From a virus: a stretch of DNA of 23,496 bases. Of this stretch, positions 239 through 12,428 are shown piece by piece. Position numbers and translations under genes: made by a program. Every line of letters begins with the position of its first letter. Position 1 is the stretch's first letter. Location: positions 1 through 23,496 of the IMG/VR virus record IMGVR_UViG_3300020474_000117; one strand, written 5' to 3'. The notes below the pieces were generated by a model that made no database searches, was not told the origin of the DNA, and was given only the letters and a program-made list of their open reading frames with translations.

Positions 239-2469
239 GCAACTAGATCAACAAACTCAGTCAAAACTTTTTTGTTAGTCTTCTTTGCTTTGAATGATTT
301 TACAAATGCTCTCTTGATTTCTGCTTTAGTCATCGCATCATTTGTCTCTTCATCAAAGTCATAGTCACTGTTTAGTGATGTGGATGATAGTGCAAAGTAC
401 TTTTGATAACCAGTATTTTCTAGAGAGAATGATTTGTTTTTTCTCCACTCAGCAGTCTTCTTGTCAATCTGCCCCCAGTCATCAGTACCGTACATATATC
501 TACGGATGAAACTACTTGCATCACGACTTGCAAGAACTCTGAATCCTATAACATTAACACTGGGATGTACACTCCTAAAATCTTCTAATAGTAATTTAGT
601 AAAATCATGAAATGAATGATTAAATCTAGTTACATTACCAGTCTTACGATTCCTTAGGAAACAATTAGAGTTGATGGATGTAGTACCTAAGAAAGGTTCT
701 GACTCCCAGTGACGATCAACATAAGAATTTCTGCGAAGACTCTGTGCTTCACCATCAGTTAATATTACAACATTAACTTTCTCTACACCAGTTTTGTTTT
801 TGAACTGAGGAATTAAATCATTCAAACAGATGATTGATTCATTAAGAGGTGTACCAGATAAAGAAAGACCATTTGGTATTGTAAAAGCATGATTTCTCCA
901 CCCATCATAGTAGGCACACATTAAGAATAGATTTTTTATATCTGTGTCTATGTCTTTAGAACTACTAGATACAAAATTTAGTAGTGAGAAATCAGAACCA
1001 ATATCAATTGTATTTGCAACACGATCATATACTGGTGGAAGATCTGTTCTACTTGAATAGGATGACTGTCTACCCTTCCACTCATTACTGAAAGCATATA
1101 CATCAAATGGGATTTGAACTTTCTTACAAAACCAGATCAATTGTAACAACTGTTTACCTGTATCAAGTAATATATTTGACATAGATCCAGACCAGTCAAG
1201 TATGAAAACTAGACCGTGATTTTTACCATTAGGAACAACAGTTATCTTTTTAAAAAGATCTTCATTAAACTTATATGTATGGAGTTTAGTGCAGTCTAGA
1301 ACACCAGTTTTAGATGTTGTAGCACGAGCATATGCACTAGCAGATTTCTTACACTCAAACTCTTTAACTAGATAAGAAACTTCTTTAGCAGAATCTTTTT
1401 TGAATTGCTCAAACTTTTCAATCATACCTTGTCTTGTATTAGTTCTATACTCATCTGATTCGTAATAAGATTTTGGTAAAGATGCTTCATACTCTGTTCT
1501 TCTTGAATCTTCCTCTTTCCAATGCTCATTCAATGAATTACGGATTTCATCGGTGGAAATGACAATGCGATCTAAATGTAGCTTTGGTAGCTCTAAGTAT
1601 ACACTCTCTGCTGCACCAGTGTCTACTAGATCCTGCAATTTAGACTCAAGTGCATCTACTGTTGTTGTATCAAACTCGTCAGATCCCTCTGGTGATGCGG
1701 ATTCTGGTTGTGGTTGCATCTTACCACTGTCATCTTGCTGGTGTGGTAATCCTTCTGACAAATCTTCTAGGTCGTTACCTTCAGATTCCTCTGATGGTTC
1801 ATCTACATCCTCAGTTTCCTGTTTACCTTCTAGATCATTGTTACCAGATCCATCTAAATTCATCTTTACCTTGACTTCTTCTTCAATTCTTTCTTCCTGT
1901 TGTTGTTTGCAGAATTCTTGCAACTCTTTAGCGAGTACACAAACTTCATAGAATGTTTCTGCCTTCTCAATTCTGTCTACTAGATCCTGCTCAGTGTCAG
2001 TAAACTCAACACATAGGAAAGGACCTATCTTAGAGTATAGATTGATACGATCAGGGAAACTAAACTCATCTATTGGTCTATCAATTTCAAAAAAGTCATC
2101 TTCATGCAACTGACCATAACCACGATAGAATGTTTTAGCAAGACCTTCGTATCTACGCTTCATTAACTTCTCAATTCTAACATCCTCAATAATATTAACA
2201 AAGGAATGTGGGACTCCAACAAATTCTTCTTGCTCGAACCATGCATCACAAGGTGTGTATAGAGCATGTCCTACCTCATGAGCAATCAAAGCATCATAAA
2301 CAGACTCTTGAGAAATCTTCCAAAGAGGTAGTGTCAAAACTCTAGTCTCAACATTGAATTGAGCAGTCTCTACATTCTTGTGTTCTACTACAAGGTTCTC
2401 TGTAGCAAGGAGTCTTGCAAGTGTTCCTTTAATATTGTGTTGCATGTGATTCGTTGTGTATATACACAT
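235..2469 (-). CDS. CobT-like protein: HExxH-type motif plus von Willebrand A domain
   Basis: Numbering is from the ATG at 2469 (744 residues). An N-terminal metallopeptidase-like segment carries HEVGH at 64-68, followed by NIIEDVRIE at 92-100, which resembles the third-ligand region of such domains. An acidic, low-complexity linker covers about 195-270. A C-terminal VWA domain has a MIDAS motif, DWSGS at 425-429, then a SLSGTP segment and VVILTDGE downstream. This arrangement resembles CobT, the VWA partner of the MoxR-type AAA+ ATPase CobS in aerobic cobalt chelatase; CobS and CobT-like proteins are known from cyanophages. The true role in phage is uncertain: cobalt insertion, or a chaperone-like complex with an ATPase. 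A second in-frame ATG at 2445 is a plausible start. The 2469 ATG has GGGGG seven bases upstream, but that G-run lies in a hairpin (2473-2500). No ATPase partner is seen in the window. Confidence 0.8.
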   Translation of the reverse strand: MCIYTTNHMQHNIKGTLARLLATENLVVEHKNVETAQFNVETRVLTLPLWKISQESVYDALIAHEVGHALYTPCDAWFEQEEFVGVPHSFVNIIEDVRIEKLMKRRYEGLAKTFYRGYGQLHEDDFFEIDRPIDEFSFPDRINLYSKIGPFLCVEFTDTEQDLVDRIEKAETFYEVCVLAKELQEFCKQQQEERIEEEVKVKMNLDGSGNNDLEGKQETEDVDEPSEESEGNDLEDLSEGLPHQQDDSGKMQPQPESASPEGSDEFDTTTVDALESKLQDLVDTGAAESVYLELPKLHLDRIVISTDEIRNSLNEHWKEEDSRRTEYEASLPKSYYESDEYRTNTRQGMIEKFEQFKKDSAKEVSYLVKEFECKKSASAYARATTSKTGVLDCTKLHTYKFNEDLFKKITVVPNGKNHGLVFILDWSGSMSNILLDTGKQLLQLIWFCKKVQIPFDVYAFSNEWKGRQSSYSSRTDLPPVYDRVANTIDIGSDFSLLNFVSSSSKDIDTDIKNLFLMCAYYDGWRNHAFTIPNGLSLSGTPLNESIICLNDLIPQFKNKTGVEKVNVVILTDGEAQSLRRNSYVDRHWESEPFLGTTSINSNCFLRNRKTGNVTRFNHSFHDFTKLLLEDFRSVHPSVNVIGFRVLASRDASSFIRRYMYGTDDWGQIDKKTAEWRKNKSFSLENTGYQKYFALSSTSLNSDYDFDEETNDAMTKAEIKRAFVKSFKAKKTNKKVLTEFVDLVA

Positions 2470-9824: not shown

Positions 9825-10420
9825 CAGTCTTTACTGAACTCTTCTGCCATACCGCCACCAATCTCTGCACCTTGGTTACCACCAAACATTGCTACCCATC
9901 CTGCTGCTAACCATCCTACAAATGGTATACCACTCAAGGCAGGAGCTGCTGCTGCACCAACACTAGTTCCTACAAGTCTTCCCGATTGTTCGCCACCACC
10001 GACTGCCTTGATACAGGCTTCGGTTCTGGCAGTTGACTTTCCCCCTGCGTCACCTCCTGTAATTGCAAGTGCTGCTGGATCTATCCAAGCACTCTTCGTA
10101 CTAACAGGACCGCCATGATGTATAGCACCATCCATTGTATACTCTTCAACAACTTTTTGTGTGTTGTTAGATAGTCCTAGGAATCCACCTTTAGTTTTAA
10201 TATCTTTAGTAGTGTACATAGTTTTAGGGTCATTTGCTCTATAAGCAATTTTATACCCATCCTCTGTTACTTCTGCCTGATATGTTGTATAGTTACCTGT
10301 AGGTATATTTAAATCGGGCAACTTACCATTATTTCTAGTGGCAAGCATACCAATCATACCAATATGGGAGGCAGCAAACAAACTACCAACTACTCCGATT
10401 GATATCCATTTAGCGTTCAT
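9821..10420 (-). CDS. Membrane protein with glycine-zipper C-terminus, unknown
   Basis: 199 residues. A hydrophobic N-terminal segment (about 5-27) looks like a signal anchor. A polar middle carries YTTYQAEVTEDGYKIAY and VVEEYTMDG. The C-terminus (about 148-190) is rich in Gly and Ala with a GxxxG-like pattern (GRLVGTSVGAAAAPALSG, GGNQGAEIGGG) and ends KDC. Such glycine-zipper segments insert in or bind membranes. The family is not recognised; it could be a structural, lysis-related or channel-like protein. It is preceded by a late-promoter motif at 10459-10465, so it is probably made late with the virion genes. Confidence 0.75.
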   Translation of the reverse strand: MNAKWISIGVVGSLFAASHIGMIGMLATRNNGKLPDLNIPTGNYTTYQAEVTEDGYKIAYRANDPKTMYTTKDIKTKGGFLGLSNNTQKVVEEYTMDGAIHHGGPVSTKSAWIDPAALAITGGDAGGKSTARTEACIKAVGGGEQSGRLVGTSVGAAAAPALSGIPFVGWLAAGWVAMFGGNQGAEIGGGMAEEFSKDC

Positions 10421-10441
10421 TTCAACACACTCATTCTACTA

Positions 10442-10555
10442 CTATATATCTGCGTCTTTATTTAGCAATTCTATCCATTCTTCATCAGGAGTAAAAACGA
10501 TAGGACCTTCTAGGATTCTTTCTTTTAATTCATCCTGAAGTTCTTCGTCGTTCAT
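10442..10555 (-). CDS. 37-residue acidic ORF after the structured RNA
   Basis: ATG 10555-10553 to TAG 10444-10442 encodes a 37-residue acidic peptide starting MNDEELQDELKERILEGP and ending LLNKDADI. Length is short and the ribosome site is poor (AAAGATTT before ATG), so translation is not certain. The reasons to list it are the acidic, protein-like composition and its place right after a promoter and a structured leader (10583-10660). No homologue is recognised. Confidence 0.5.
   Translation of the reverse strand: MNDEELQDELKERILEGPIVFTPDEEWIELLNKDADI
10459..10465 (-). promoter_or_regulatory. Late promoter motif before the glycine-zipper gene
   Basis: CTAAATA on the minus strand, 39 bases before the ATG at 10420. 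It is inside the last codons of the 37-residue ORF (10442-10555), the same end-of-gene placement as other late motifs here. Confidence 0.55.
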
Positions 10556-10582
10556 AAATCTTTATATTCTTTATTATATAGG

Positions 10583-10660
10583 TTGGTAGGTTCCTATAGC
10601 CGCTTATCCTGAACCTACCAAAGGGGATAACCGCAGTCGTAGGTAGCGAAACAAACGACT
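10583..10660 (-). ncRNA. Structured RNA element with pseudoknot topology
   Basis: On the minus strand three helices can be drawn. P0: AGTCGT (10660-10655) with ACGACT (10640-10635). S1: TTATCC (10630-10625) with GGATAA (10609-10604). S2: TTGGTAGGTTC (10621-10611) with GAACCTACCAA (10593-10583), 11 perfect pairs. S1 and S2 interlock, which is an H-type pseudoknot layout, with loops of three, one and ten bases. The three-base loop across an 11-pair helix is tight, so S1 and S2 may instead be alternative folds. A promoter-like TGTGTTATAAT sits just upstream (10666-10676), so the RNA would start almost exactly at P0. It could be a riboswitch-like leader for the 37-residue ORF or a free small RNA. 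I did not match it to a named class. Confidence 0.6.
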
Positions 10661-10665
10661 CATAC

Positions 10666-10676
10666 ATTATAACACA
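10666..10676 (-). promoter_or_regulatory. Extended -10 promoter before the structured RNA
   Basis: TGTGTTATAAT on the minus strand (10676-10666) has a perfect -10 and an extended TG. No good -35 is seen 17 bases upstream, where the tRNA-Leu gene lies. The expected start is near 10659, at the first hairpin of the structured RNA. Confidence 0.55.
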
Positions 10677-10679
10677 AAA

Positions 10680-10752
10680 TAGGAGTGGTGGGAGTCGAAC
10701 CCACACTGTAGAGATTTTAAGTCTCCTGTCTCTGCCGTTGGACTACACTCCC
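10680..10752 (-). tRNA. tRNA-Leu (UAA), short variable arm
   Basis: 73 bases fold as a cloverleaf: acceptor GGGAGTG/CACTCCT, D arm GTCC..AGAC (three good pairs and one C-A mismatch), anticodon stem GGAGA/TCTCT with loop CTTAAAA, T arm GTGGG-TTCGACT-CCCAC and discriminator A. The anticodon reads UAA, decoding UUA (Leu). The variable region is only five bases (ACAGT), although bacterial tRNA-Leu normally has a long class II arm. No CCA is encoded. It is the third tRNA of the cluster. Confidence 0.85.
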
Positions 10753-10756
10753 TAAG

Positions 10757-10829
10757 CGATTCAGGTAGGACTCGAACCTACAACCAATTGCTTAGAAGGC
10801 AATTGCTCTATCCTTTGAGCTACTGAATC
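10757..10829 (-). tRNA. tRNA-Arg (UCU)
   Basis: 73-base cloverleaf: acceptor GATTCAG/CTGAATC (seven perfect pairs), D arm GCTC/GAGC, anticodon stem ATTGC/GCAAT with loop CTTCTAA, T arm GTAGG-TTCGAGT-CCTAC and discriminator G. The anticodon UCU reads AGA and AGG. No CCA is encoded. It is four bases from the tRNA-Leu gene and three from the tRNA-Ile gene. Confidence 0.95.
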
Positions 10830-10832
10830 AAA

Positions 10833-10904
10833 TAGGACTACCGAGAATTGAACTCGGTTCACACCGTTATAAGCAGTGGGCATTAACCAATATGCGATAG
10901 TCCC
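10833..10904 (-). tRNA. tRNA-Ile (UAU)
   Basis: 72-base cloverleaf: acceptor GGGACTA/TAGTCCT (one terminal G-U), D arm GCAT/ATGC, anticodon stem CACTG/CGGTG with loop CTTATAA, a four-base variable region, T arm CCGAG-TTCAATT-CTCGG and discriminator A. The anticodon UAU reads AUA directly, whereas most bacteria read AUA with a CAU tRNA modified to lysidine. No CCA is encoded. It is the first tRNA after the promoter at 10921. Confidence 0.92.
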
Positions 10905-10920
10905 TTGTCTTGACTGATGA

Positions 10921-10931
10921 ATTATAGCACA
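10921..10931 (-). promoter_or_regulatory. Extended -10 promoter for the tRNA cluster
   Basis: TGTGCTATAAT on the minus strand (10931-10921) matches the sites before gp55 and the structured RNA except for one base. It lies between the gp23 terminator and the tRNA-Ile gene, with an expected start about ten bases before the tRNA. No clear -35 is present. Confidence 0.6.
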
Positions 10932-10957
10932 AAAAAAAGACCCCCCGAAGGGAGTCT
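10931..10957 (-). terminator. Intrinsic terminator after gp23
   Basis: Minus strand: AGACTCCC (10957-10950), tetraloop TTCG, GGGGGTCT (10945-10938), giving eight pairs with one G-U, followed by a run of T to 10931. This is a textbook rho-independent terminator, 26 bases after the gp23 stop. It separates capsid transcription from the tRNA promoter that follows at once. Confidence 0.92.
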
Positions 10958-10982
10958 CTTAAAGAAATATGTAATTTCTGAA

Positions 10983-12428
10983 TTACATGAGGTTCTGAAC
11001 AACAGTACGCTGATAGTAGCGGTTGCTGTTAGATGTGATGCGTCCAAGTCCTTGAGCAGTACCTTCAGCGAATGGGTTTGAAACAAGACCGTATCTTGTC
11101 TTAAATCCAATTTTTGGCTGGAAGGTGTTCTCTCCAACTGCTCTTACCATCTGTAGTGGTACATATGGGCAGTAGAATAGACCAGCATCATAAGGAGAAG
11201 ATCCTTTGTATCCAACAACATAGTACTGATTAGCAGCACTGTTAGCAGAGAATGGATCGATGTACACTTTGTACTTACCTTGGATAGTACCAGCAAATGT
11301 ATTACCAGTATCATCAACTTGTAGGTTAGCATTAAGTGCAGGTGTGTAATCAAGTACACCAGCCATTGTTAGAGCAGATGCTACATCGGCACTAGTTAGG
11401 ATGATGTTACCCTTTCCACGACGAGTTCTCTGTGCGATTCTGTTGGCATCTCTTTCGATGTTAAACAGAAGACCTTTGAACTTCTCAACTGACCATCTAC
11501 CATTGGAGTCAACATCTAGGTTAAAGAAACCTGCGTTTGCAACATTGACCTGTGAACCTGCTTCAGCAGTTTTGTAGATAGTACGAATAACTTCTCTGTT
11601 AATCTCTGCAAGAATCTCAGAAGAAAGAATGTTTGCTAACTCAGCCTCAGCGTTCAATCCGTGGATTGCCTTAAGGTCTTGAGCGAGTTCTAAACTGTAC
11701 TCTGCTTTTAGTGCTCTAGACTTAGCGGTTACAGTCACCTTCTCGATGGAGAATGCCATCTCGTTGAAGTGACCATTAGTGCCGTCGCCTAATGCTTCAG
11801 AGTCACCAGTTGCCATACCTTGACCCAATGAATACTGAGCTTGAACAGCATCAGAAGCATTGTTCTCTAGGATAGCAGGGTTTGTTCCACGCTGAGTTGC
11901 GGTTGAACCGAAACCAACTGTACCATCATCATCAGTAGCAGCAGTGTAATCACCCTGTGTTGTTTGACCAACATTGGTTCCTGCCTTATTAGCAGAGAAT
12001 GCTGAATCTGGTTCGTTGAAGAATGCTTCTGTACCAGACTGATTGGTGTAGCGTGAACGCATTGCGAAGATTAGTCCAGTAGGACCATTCATTGGCTGAA
12101 CACCTGCTAGTTCATAAGCAACTAGGTTAGGCATTGAGCGTCTAATCAATGAGATTAGAACTGGGTCGAAACCAGCAACAGGACCAGCTTCTGCTGAGCC
12201 TCCACCAAATGCACCAGAAGCACCAACAGCGTTACCACTGTTTGTTGGAGCTGCCTCAGTTAGCATTGAGGTTCCGTTCTCAAAAGCAGCTTGCTCTTTG
12301 AGGAATTTTTCTTGGTTCTCTAGAAGAACTGCGGTTACTGAACGACGGTGAGCATCCTTAATCGGATCTACCCCTTCAGCGTCGAGAAGTGGACTCCACT
12401 TCTCCATAATTTGTTCGGCATTGTACAT
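10983..12428 (-). CDS. 23: Major capsid protein gp23
   Basis: 481 residues (T4 gp23: 521), with the expected N-terminal propeptide. A gp21 cleavage motif of the L-x-E type, LTE at 56-58, is followed by AAPTNSG, so mature protein would start at A59. Shared core segments are SLIRRSMPNLVAYELAGVQPMNGPTGLIFAMRSRY and, near the end, GYKGSSPYDAGLFYCPYVPL and FQPKIGFKTRYGLVSNPF. It forms the hexamers of the head shell. A terminator lies right after the gene. The gene sits 27 bases after gp22 with only a weak late-promoter-like AT stretch between them, so it may depend partly on upstream transcripts. Confidence 0.98.
   Translation of the reverse strand: MYNAEQIMEKWSPLLDAEGVDPIKDAHRRSVTAVLLENQEKFLKEQAAFENGTSMLTEAAPTNSGNAVGASGAFGGGSAEAGPVAGFDPVLISLIRRSMPNLVAYELAGVQPMNGPTGLIFAMRSRYTNQSGTEAFFNEPDSAFSANKAGTNVGQTTQGDYTAATDDDGTVGFGSTATQRGTNPAILENNASDAVQAQYSLGQGMATGDSEALGDGTNGHFNEMAFSIEKVTVTAKSRALKAEYSLELAQDLKAIHGLNAEAELANILSSEILAEINREVIRTIYKTAEAGSQVNVANAGFFNLDVDSNGRWSVEKFKGLLFNIERDANRIAQRTRRGKGNIILTSADVASALTMAGVLDYTPALNANLQVDDTGNTFAGTIQGKYKVYIDPFSANSAANQYYVVGYKGSSPYDAGLFYCPYVPLQMVRAVGENTFQPKIGFKTRYGLVSNPFAEGTAQGLGRITSNSNRYYQRTVVQNLM

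Follow-up and report, generated by a model that had tools for sequence, protein, structure and literature searches.

A candidate promoter-linked pseudoknot RNA of marine T4-like cyanophages

Viruses that are common in the sunlit ocean include the T4-like cyanophages. On the minus strand of a viral stretch of 23,496 nucleotides (the complete stretch analysed, referred to as the window), a compact pseudoknotted RNA with its own promoter had been proposed from the letters of the sequence. This raises the question whether related phages keep such an RNA and, if so, whether it would serve the gene behind it or be a product in its own right.

In the window, the element is preceded by the major head gene and by genes for tRNA-Leu, tRNA-Arg and tRNA-Ile. 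The genes behind it were assigned with PHROGs to tail tube, a UvsY-like protein, a DNA helicase, the late sigma factor and SbcD/SbcC-like proteins. The best phage records matched by the head protein share 72-73% identity with it, and nine out of ten of them are Synechococcus phages; therefore, the window is taken to be a fragment of a T4-like cyanophage. A strong terminator-like site (10960-10935, minus strand) follows the major head gene, and a TATAAT box (10926-10921, minus strand) is located directly past this site, ahead of the tRNA cluster.

Structure and covariation of the element

Positions 10660-10585 of the minus strand can be drawn as a 76-nt RNA of three helices, i.e., a P1 hairpin followed by an H-type pseudoknot in which P2 and P3 interlock (Table 1). 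The three helices of 6, 6 and 11 pairs given in the sequence-only reading, two of them interlocking, are present. Eleven pairs of P3 form in the window versus the 8-9 kept in relatives, and the two U at 10621-10620 contribute the extra pairs. The TATAAT box ends 5 nt before P1, whose 5' arm is at the predicted transcription start. The 37-residue acidic ORF said to follow was also found; no PHROG family was obtained for it. An ORF of 38 aa with the same FTPDEE stretch is located behind the element in the viral locus L128 as well, and the two possibly represent a real small gene family.

Table 1. Predicted parts of the element in the window and the ORF behind it.
Feature	Position	Strand	Remark
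Extended -10 promoter TGTGTTATAAT	10676-10666	minus	TATAAT at 10671-10666; predicted from sequence
P1 hairpin AGTCGT/ACGACT	10660-10655 / 10640-10635	minus	6 pairs, 14-nt loop
GCGG, 5' half of the P2 extension	10634-10631	minus	pairs C10633-G10601 and G10632-C10602; mismatch G10631.G10603
P2 5' arm UUAUCC (DNA TTATCC)	10630-10625	minus	6 pairs with 10609-10604
Loop L1 CCUUU	10624-10620	minus	CCTT fixed in the loop-only scan
P3 full helix TTGGTAGGTTC/GAACCTACCAA	10621-10611 / 10593-10583	minus	11 pairs in the window
P3 5' arm core GGUAGGUUC	10619-10611	minus	pairs with 10593-10585
Junction A between P3 and P2	10610	minus	required by the scan, its constancy being no independent result
P2 3' arm GGAUAA (DNA GGATAA)	10609-10604	minus	pairs with 10630-10625
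GCGGC-NAUAG, 3' half of the P2 extension and loop L3	10603-10594	minus	mostly fixed in the scans
P3 3' arm core GAACCUACC	10593-10585	minus	outside the loop-only scan pattern
Acidic ORF, 37 aa	10555-10442	minus	ATG starts 29 nt past base 10585

Single-sequence folding of the window element gave a z-score of -2.05 (7 of 200 shuffles as good) and, in a second run, of -1.88 (9 of 200). The fold obtained was a nested alternative; the program draws no pseudoknots. For five members, z-scores ranged from -0.14 to -1.88. Since a single sequence with a z-score of -2.05 cannot decide against chance, the comparison of relatives decides.

Using BLAST, matches covering the pseudoknot part and little flanking sequence were found in the Prochlorococcus phages P-SSM2 and P-SSM5 and in two single-cell marine viruses. 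A more distant relative in Synechococcus phage S-SKS1 shows paired changes in P1, P2 and P3. These relatives stand in other gene contexts than the window. The element is also carried by 45 listed records of phage ACG-2014f. IMG/VR was then scanned with the loop and junction bases fixed, whereas P2, the 5' arm of P3 and the whole 3' arm of P3 were left free. The loop-only scan yielded at least 119 stretches of viral contigs and, together with the earlier loci, at least 140 matches with 73 distinct cores (alignment A2). Of these cores, 68 came first from the loop-only scan, and the other five were obtained with BLAST or with scans in which the stems were partly fixed; one chance match to the loop pattern with unpaired stems (L125) was kept in A2.

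In A2, 98.8% of the stem cells are paired and 13 of the 15 pairs show changes on both sides. Covariation was 0.446, compared to 0.186 after shuffling, and 0.040-0.093 was obtained when the pairings were slid by 1-3 columns from the true register. None of 500 shuffles matched the observed value of any of five measures. Both-side changes occur in all six pairs of P2 (98.4% of cells paired) and in seven of the nine pairs of P3 (99.1% of cells paired). The UUC/GAA end of P3 is nearly invariant, though it was left free in the loop-only scan. At the free positions of the GCGGC-NAUAG stretch, the first is G in 54 and T in 19 cores, and the second is T in 67, C in five and A in one. Thus, the covariation check in related phages, which had been proposed together with the element, speaks for the helices, and the compact pseudoknotted RNA with its own promoter is, as judged from the alignments, kept and covarying in those phages.

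P1 was assessed separately. A perfect helix of at least five pairs just before GCNN is present in 235 of 312 listed loci versus 26 of 312 after shuffling. The loop of P1 is free while its stem stays, and four of its six pairs show both-side changes in a set that was selected for having the P1 helix. The loop and P3 had also been suggested to form an alternative, in which CTACC of the P1 loop pairs with GGTAG of P3. This pairing can be drawn in the window, but there is no sign of a conserved switch: CTACC is found in the P1 loop of 26 of 316 distinct listed loci and is also kept where P3 reads GGTGG (10 of the 26, pairable by wobble) or GATGG (one locus). An 11-nt pairing of the P1 loop of the window with 23S rRNA (E. 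coli rrlH 1928-1938) was rejected, as 29 of 500 shuffled elements gave an equal result.

Scans for forms with an eight-pair P3 and with other P2 extensions increased the number to at least 397 elements in 395 loci, determined by a structural caller which required pairing. These totals are lower bounds, and the shares by class depend on the scan patterns used. The P2 extension has the form GCGG/GCGGC in 276 of the 397 called elements, GCUG/GAGGC in 104, GCUC/GGGGC in 15 and other forms in two. At the pair G10632-C10602, nine base combinations were allowed in the scan, and just U-A and U-G were seen besides G-C. Because all 121 called elements without G-C there have U-A (106) or U-G (15), P2 is read as continuing beyond the G.G mismatch with G10632-C10602 and C10633-G10601. 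When a base other than C was demanded at the first L1 position of the nine-pair form, four contigs with two distinct sequences were found, all with UCUU; one further scan, the pattern of which still admitted the common base, added nothing.

For 74 diverse members selected by the caller (alignment A3), 98.7% of the cells are paired and 17 of 23 pairs show both-side changes. A3 and the covariance model were built from members required to pair in P1, P2 and P3; hence, the 98.7% is inflated and descriptive only. All 12 loci from L031 to L042 hold elements according to the structural caller. The length of the element in 74 sampled loci is 61-89 nt, with P1 loops of up to 17 nt.

Promoter, neighbouring genes and distribution

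In 272 of 310 distinct listed loci, P1 is preceded by a TATAAT-like hexamer (5 or 6 matches) whose end is 3-7 nt away, compared to 19 of 1112 control windows; the other 38 loci have no -10 box at the expected place. A -35 box (5 or 6 matches to TTGACA) at a distance of 17 nt was found in 107 of 154 listed loci with a tRNA gene behind the element, a figure without control. The promoter claimed for the window, set such that the transcript would begin at the first helix, is thereby matched in relatives: a σ70-type -10 box is placed so that P1 should begin at, or within 1-2 bases of, the transcript start. The preceding gene, as annotated in S-B43 and S-H68, runs into P1.

The region behind the element was analyzed in 316 distinct listed loci with at least 150 nt downstream. 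A tRNA gene follows within 40 nt in 154 of them, always 2-7 nt from the called P3 end and in 138 cases 3-4 nt from it. The first tRNA is tRNA-Arg in 117 and tRNA-Pro in 34 of these loci. Neighbouring tRNA genes behind the element are 0-3 nt apart in just 98 of 273 pairs, so the tight spacing between element and tRNA is not simply that of the cluster. In 145 loci, the ATG of an ORF of at least 30 codons is located within 80 nt, and 67 of these ATGs are 17-20 nt behind the element. Of the remaining loci, two have a tRNA gene further on and 15 have neither. In total, 48 downstream labels were assigned over the 316 listed loci, whereby tRNA kinds and 'other' were counted; ORFs were split by their first eight residues where no motif grouped them, and a few families are perhaps double-counted. 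Of the 46 cores with multiple loci, 16 precede two or more labels. The gene that the predicted RNA would head is not fixed.

Terminator-like sites within 80 nt behind the element were found in four of the 316 listed loci. Before the element, such sites are present in 46 of 140 listed loci of the ORF type versus three of 154 of the tRNA type. As there is hardly any terminator behind it, the RNA should be co-transcribed with what follows, forming the head of a longer transcript. In 16 of the 316 listed loci, a TTGACT-TATAAT promoter of the next gene itself starts 4-30 nt behind the element. When all kinds of strong promoter starting within 100 nt behind it were counted, they were present in 33 of 316 listed loci, compared to 11 of 316 for a control stretch.

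A comparison with a riboswitch-like leader had been made for the window, and this part of the sequence-only reading, in the usual sense of the term, was not supported. A riboswitch, or another cis-regulator sensing a metabolite and controlling the gene behind, would be compact and pseudoknotted with constant loop bases like the element, and it could act in the 145 listed loci with an ORF behind, some of which are metabolic by motif (PurM-like in 11, PstS-like in three). The tRNA genes 2-7 nt behind the element, found in almost half of the listed loci, leave no room for an expression platform and make translation control impossible there. No common pathway was seen among the downstream genes. 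In simple pattern tests for an expression platform, terminators were as rare as stated above, and SD-like tetramers before the ATG were found in six of 140 listed loci. Consequently, a translational riboswitch fits poorly and is unlikely, and control of the downstream gene by metabolite sensing is, taken as a whole, very improbable.

Several further observations concern the surroundings of the element. In P-SSM2, PSSM2_175 (L001:3073-3741) is annotated as purM, and its sole PHROG match, 3704, is described as ferredoxin; the next gene, PSSM2_176, is annotated as purM as well. Stretches shared between contigs are located just behind the element in L290, L294, L320, L333, L345 and L365, with GTGAAGCACCTCTTGAGC in some and GTGGGCAAACGCAAGGCAGGGGTGAG in others. 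No Rfam match at gathering score was obtained in these six loci, and the stretches are possibly further unnamed RNAs. The tRNA cluster of one carrier contains a cyanobacterial-type tmRNA (RF01851 with 146 bits; RF04321 matches as well) at L126:2511-2752 on the minus strand, and that of another contains an abiF RNA (RF03085) at L084:2577-2613, minus strand.

Using the covariance model with strict filters, which weak second copies might escape, 11 of 19 phage records were found to contain the element, each with one match. S-PM2, Syn9, P-SSM4, P-SSM7, S-CREM1, S-SSM7, pelagiphage HTVC008M and T4 gave no match. The 19 records are a non-random sample of ten carriers known by BLAST and nine added records, of which S-SM2 was positive, and include the near relatives P-SSM2/P-SSM5 and S-B43/S-H68. 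Nine of the positives are filed under Kyanoviridae, S-SKS1 is filed as Llyrvirus and S-SCSM2R has no family. For P-SSM2 and P-SSM5, BLAST lists two places and the covariance model finds one. Twelve IMG/VR records, which may be incomplete, were chosen as carriers; 11 contain the element once and one contains it twice. Overall, the element is single in 22 of 23 positive records, the sole exception being L202, with copies at 568-609 and 1742-1783 (minus strand) at a distance of 1.2 kb. Because eight of the 19 phage records are without a match, the element is considered dispensable for the group.

A host origin was rejected: the scan of 84,980 bacterial and archaeal species (one genome each), for which the form with GCGG/GCGGC, TTC/GAA and a nine-pair P3 only was used, gave one match, in Sutterella, with unpaired stems. 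A plasmid origin was likewise rejected, since just a 20-nt chance match was found.

Possible roles of the RNA

A cis-regulator keeps to a gene or pathway, and the element keeps to neither. The conserved unit is a single copy of the RNA with its promoter, which suggests that the virus retains the knotted RNA as such rather than the downstream gene. We tentatively favour the reading of the element as a promoter-RNA cassette whose RNA would be the product, co-transcribed with the downstream genes and binding a macromolecule. The transcript would start at P1 and run through the pseudoknot into the following gene. Before tRNAs, RNase P would cut the RNA free, giving a molecule that is about 60-90 nt long and base-paired at its 5' end. 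Before ORFs, it would stay on the mRNA or be cut off in the linker, perhaps by an endonuclease. The constant loop bases, which would be gathered in the pseudoknot core, may bind a macromolecule of the host or of the phage in the course of infection. As there is no long constant unpaired stretch, binding of a protein is likelier than antisense pairing.

This product reading is favoured by the mostly single copy per record, by the variety of downstream labels, also among cores found at more than one locus, by the tRNA genes 2-7 nt behind the element in 154 of 316 listed loci, by the TATAAT-like box fixed to P1 and by the listed loci in which the next gene has a promoter of its own. Other observations count against it. 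A free RNA would need processing, because terminator-like sites behind the element are so rare. The frequent ATG at 17-20 nt is what would be expected of a kept 5' UTR with room for the ribosome. Moreover, some listed loci are without a -10 box, eight phage records are without the element, and the spacing to the tRNA is tighter than that within the clusters. In its widest form, which is put forward with slightly more reserve, the proposal would be a new class of phage RNA, comprising the first 60-90 nt of one transcript and encoded by a mobile promoter-RNA cassette. At the head of a tRNA operon, this RNA would be released by RNase P, and its target in trans would belong to the host machinery, such as a defence toxin, an RNase or the RNA polymerase.

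The main rival to the product reading is a put-like cis element. Here, the nascent pseudoknot would bind the host RNA polymerase after initiation and confer resistance to pausing or termination on the operon behind. According to the excerpted text of PMC9378689, the putRNAs of HK022 are about 70 nt long, are located downstream of early promoters (putL just past PL) and require no dedicated protein. The element, of about the same length, starts at an early-type promoter at the loci with a TATAAT-like box, and precedes tRNA operons as well as ORFs. The few terminators behind it and the tight ATG spacing would also agree with a leader at the 5' end that affects the polymerase or the transcript to which it belongs. 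P-SSM2 has two terminator-like sites 0.1-0.9 kb behind the element on the same strand, but the number in that region is near that of shuffles (6 versus 3.8). On the minus strand of the window, one weak terminator-like site was found in the 10 kb behind the element (shuffles 3.4, both strands). A putRNA consists of two stem-loops (excerpts of PMC9378689), in contrast to a P1 hairpin plus pseudoknot. Furthermore, HK022 has two putRNAs per genome, and the one copy found here is few for a general tool. HK022 is an E. coli phage, and the likeness is one of length and of position behind a promoter. A put-like role is rather unlikely. The two readings are not far apart, since the activity of putRNA is independent of its tether to the polymerase (PMC9378689, as excerpted).

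A third explanation is a shield of the 5' end, in which the helix at the start and the pseudoknot would protect the transcript against cyanobacterial RNase E and RNase J, the latter a 5'-3' exonuclease, so that the downstream RNA lasts longer. An RNase J gene is present in every sequenced cyanobacterial genome according to the excerpt of PMC10989914. P1 begins at the predicted first base, its stem is kept while the loops vary, and the downstream gene makes no difference, all of which a shield would explain. However, tRNAs are separated from the leader in any case, a shield of general use would be expected at many genes per genome and not at one, and the constant loop bases demand more than a plain block. 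We consider this explanation unlikely.

The RNA might also be a decoy or antitoxin occupying a host toxin or defence nuclease, similar to the pseudo-ToxI of phage TE. The H-type pseudoknot is the fold of ToxI antitoxins, and a pseudo-ToxI was produced by phage TE escape mutants, so that a phage-borne mimic is known (excerpts of PMC5086642). The element has the H-type pseudoknot of the type III antitoxin RNAs, the tRNA cluster of one carrier contains an abiF RNA, and Phd-like antitoxin-type ORFs were found by motif behind the element in seven of 316 listed loci. One member of these matched PHROG 375 in a check which covered five downstream proteins and three neighbours. Such cases are few, however. 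ToxI antitoxins are repeats beside a toxin gene, whereas the element is a single unit with a 5' hairpin, and no tandem repeats were found in 22 of 23 positive records, each of which has a single element. A decoy is thus quite improbable.

Finally, the element could be part of a replication origin, its transcript priming DNA synthesis. The T4 origin ori(uvsY) is one with transcript-primed DNA synthesis. The element is mostly single-copy and promoter-linked, it is located about 1.4 kb upstream of the uvsY-like gene in the window, and in P-SSM2 it is about 4 kb from the point at which the detrended cumulative GC skew is lowest. Against this, the GC skew has no sign change at the element in four genomes, and the other three have no minimum nearby. 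In six reference phages, no uvsY is annotated within 1.5-3 kb on each side, where many genes are 'hypothetical'. An origin is the least probable of the explanations and would be surprising.

A mostly single-copy RNA whose helices are kept by paired changes amid turnover of its neighbourhood points to a so far unrecognised step in the handling of the host by T4-like cyanophages. The element is short, has its own predicted promoter and is present in the cultured phages P-SSM2, S-SM2 and S-SKS1; therefore, its role can be tested directly. In addition, it serves as a marker for a sizeable class of tRNA operons in marine phages.

Relation to known RNA families

A search with Rfam had been recommended for the window. 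Using 4227 families of Rfam 15 at the gathering cut-off, no match was obtained at the window element or at 30 further whole loci, which were taken from sets of 15, 5 and 11 (L064 is in two sets). With E-values of up to 10, no Rfam match was found at the element in the region 10300-11000 of the window. A relaxed Rfam search of P-SSM2 (L001:2880-3080) matched just two models, one of a human lncRNA and one of a snoRNA, both far below the cut-off.

Glutamine riboswitches are pseudoknot leaders of cyanobacteria and cyanophages, one of which is found ahead of short peptides. Their signature bases had not been found in the sequence-only reading, in agreement with the search, as neither glnA RNA (RF01739) nor the Downstream-peptide RNA matched up to E=10 in the same region.

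In the excerpts of PMC9964418 and PMC9602691, the ncRNAs named for T4-like cyanophages are CFrI, PhotoRC-II, wcaG and the glutamine riboswitch, and those for S-CREM1 are abiF, wcaG, manA and glnA; the knotted RNA is absent from the ncRNAs named there. Among the open-licence papers listed, no title or opening of an abstract describes the RNA, and an earlier mention elsewhere is possible. The element is apparently one copy of an unnamed and undescribed RNA family of marine T4-like cyanophages, as far as its sequence relatives indicate.

Both manA and wcaG had been named as candidates to exclude, and neither matched at the window element. Like the element, wcaG RNA (RF01761) is a cyanophage RNA, and the two are up to about 3 kb apart at four loci, but they occupy separate positions at all four (L087, L148, L011, L127). 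For manA RNA (RF01745), matches were obtained elsewhere in the same records. It is shared with the element by marine T4-like cyanophages and located near or in the same tRNA clusters, but differs in its model of 192 positions. In P-SSM2, manA is at L001:1787-1984 and the element at L001:2984-3053. The order in ACG-2014f and S-B43 is element, tRNA-Arg, manA, tRNA. In both phages, manA fills the gap between two tRNA genes with spacers of 0-2 nt (L157:1632-1842 in ACG-2014f and L158:1630-1840 in S-B43), and in these tRNA clusters it can hardly act as a 5' UTR regulator of a protein gene.
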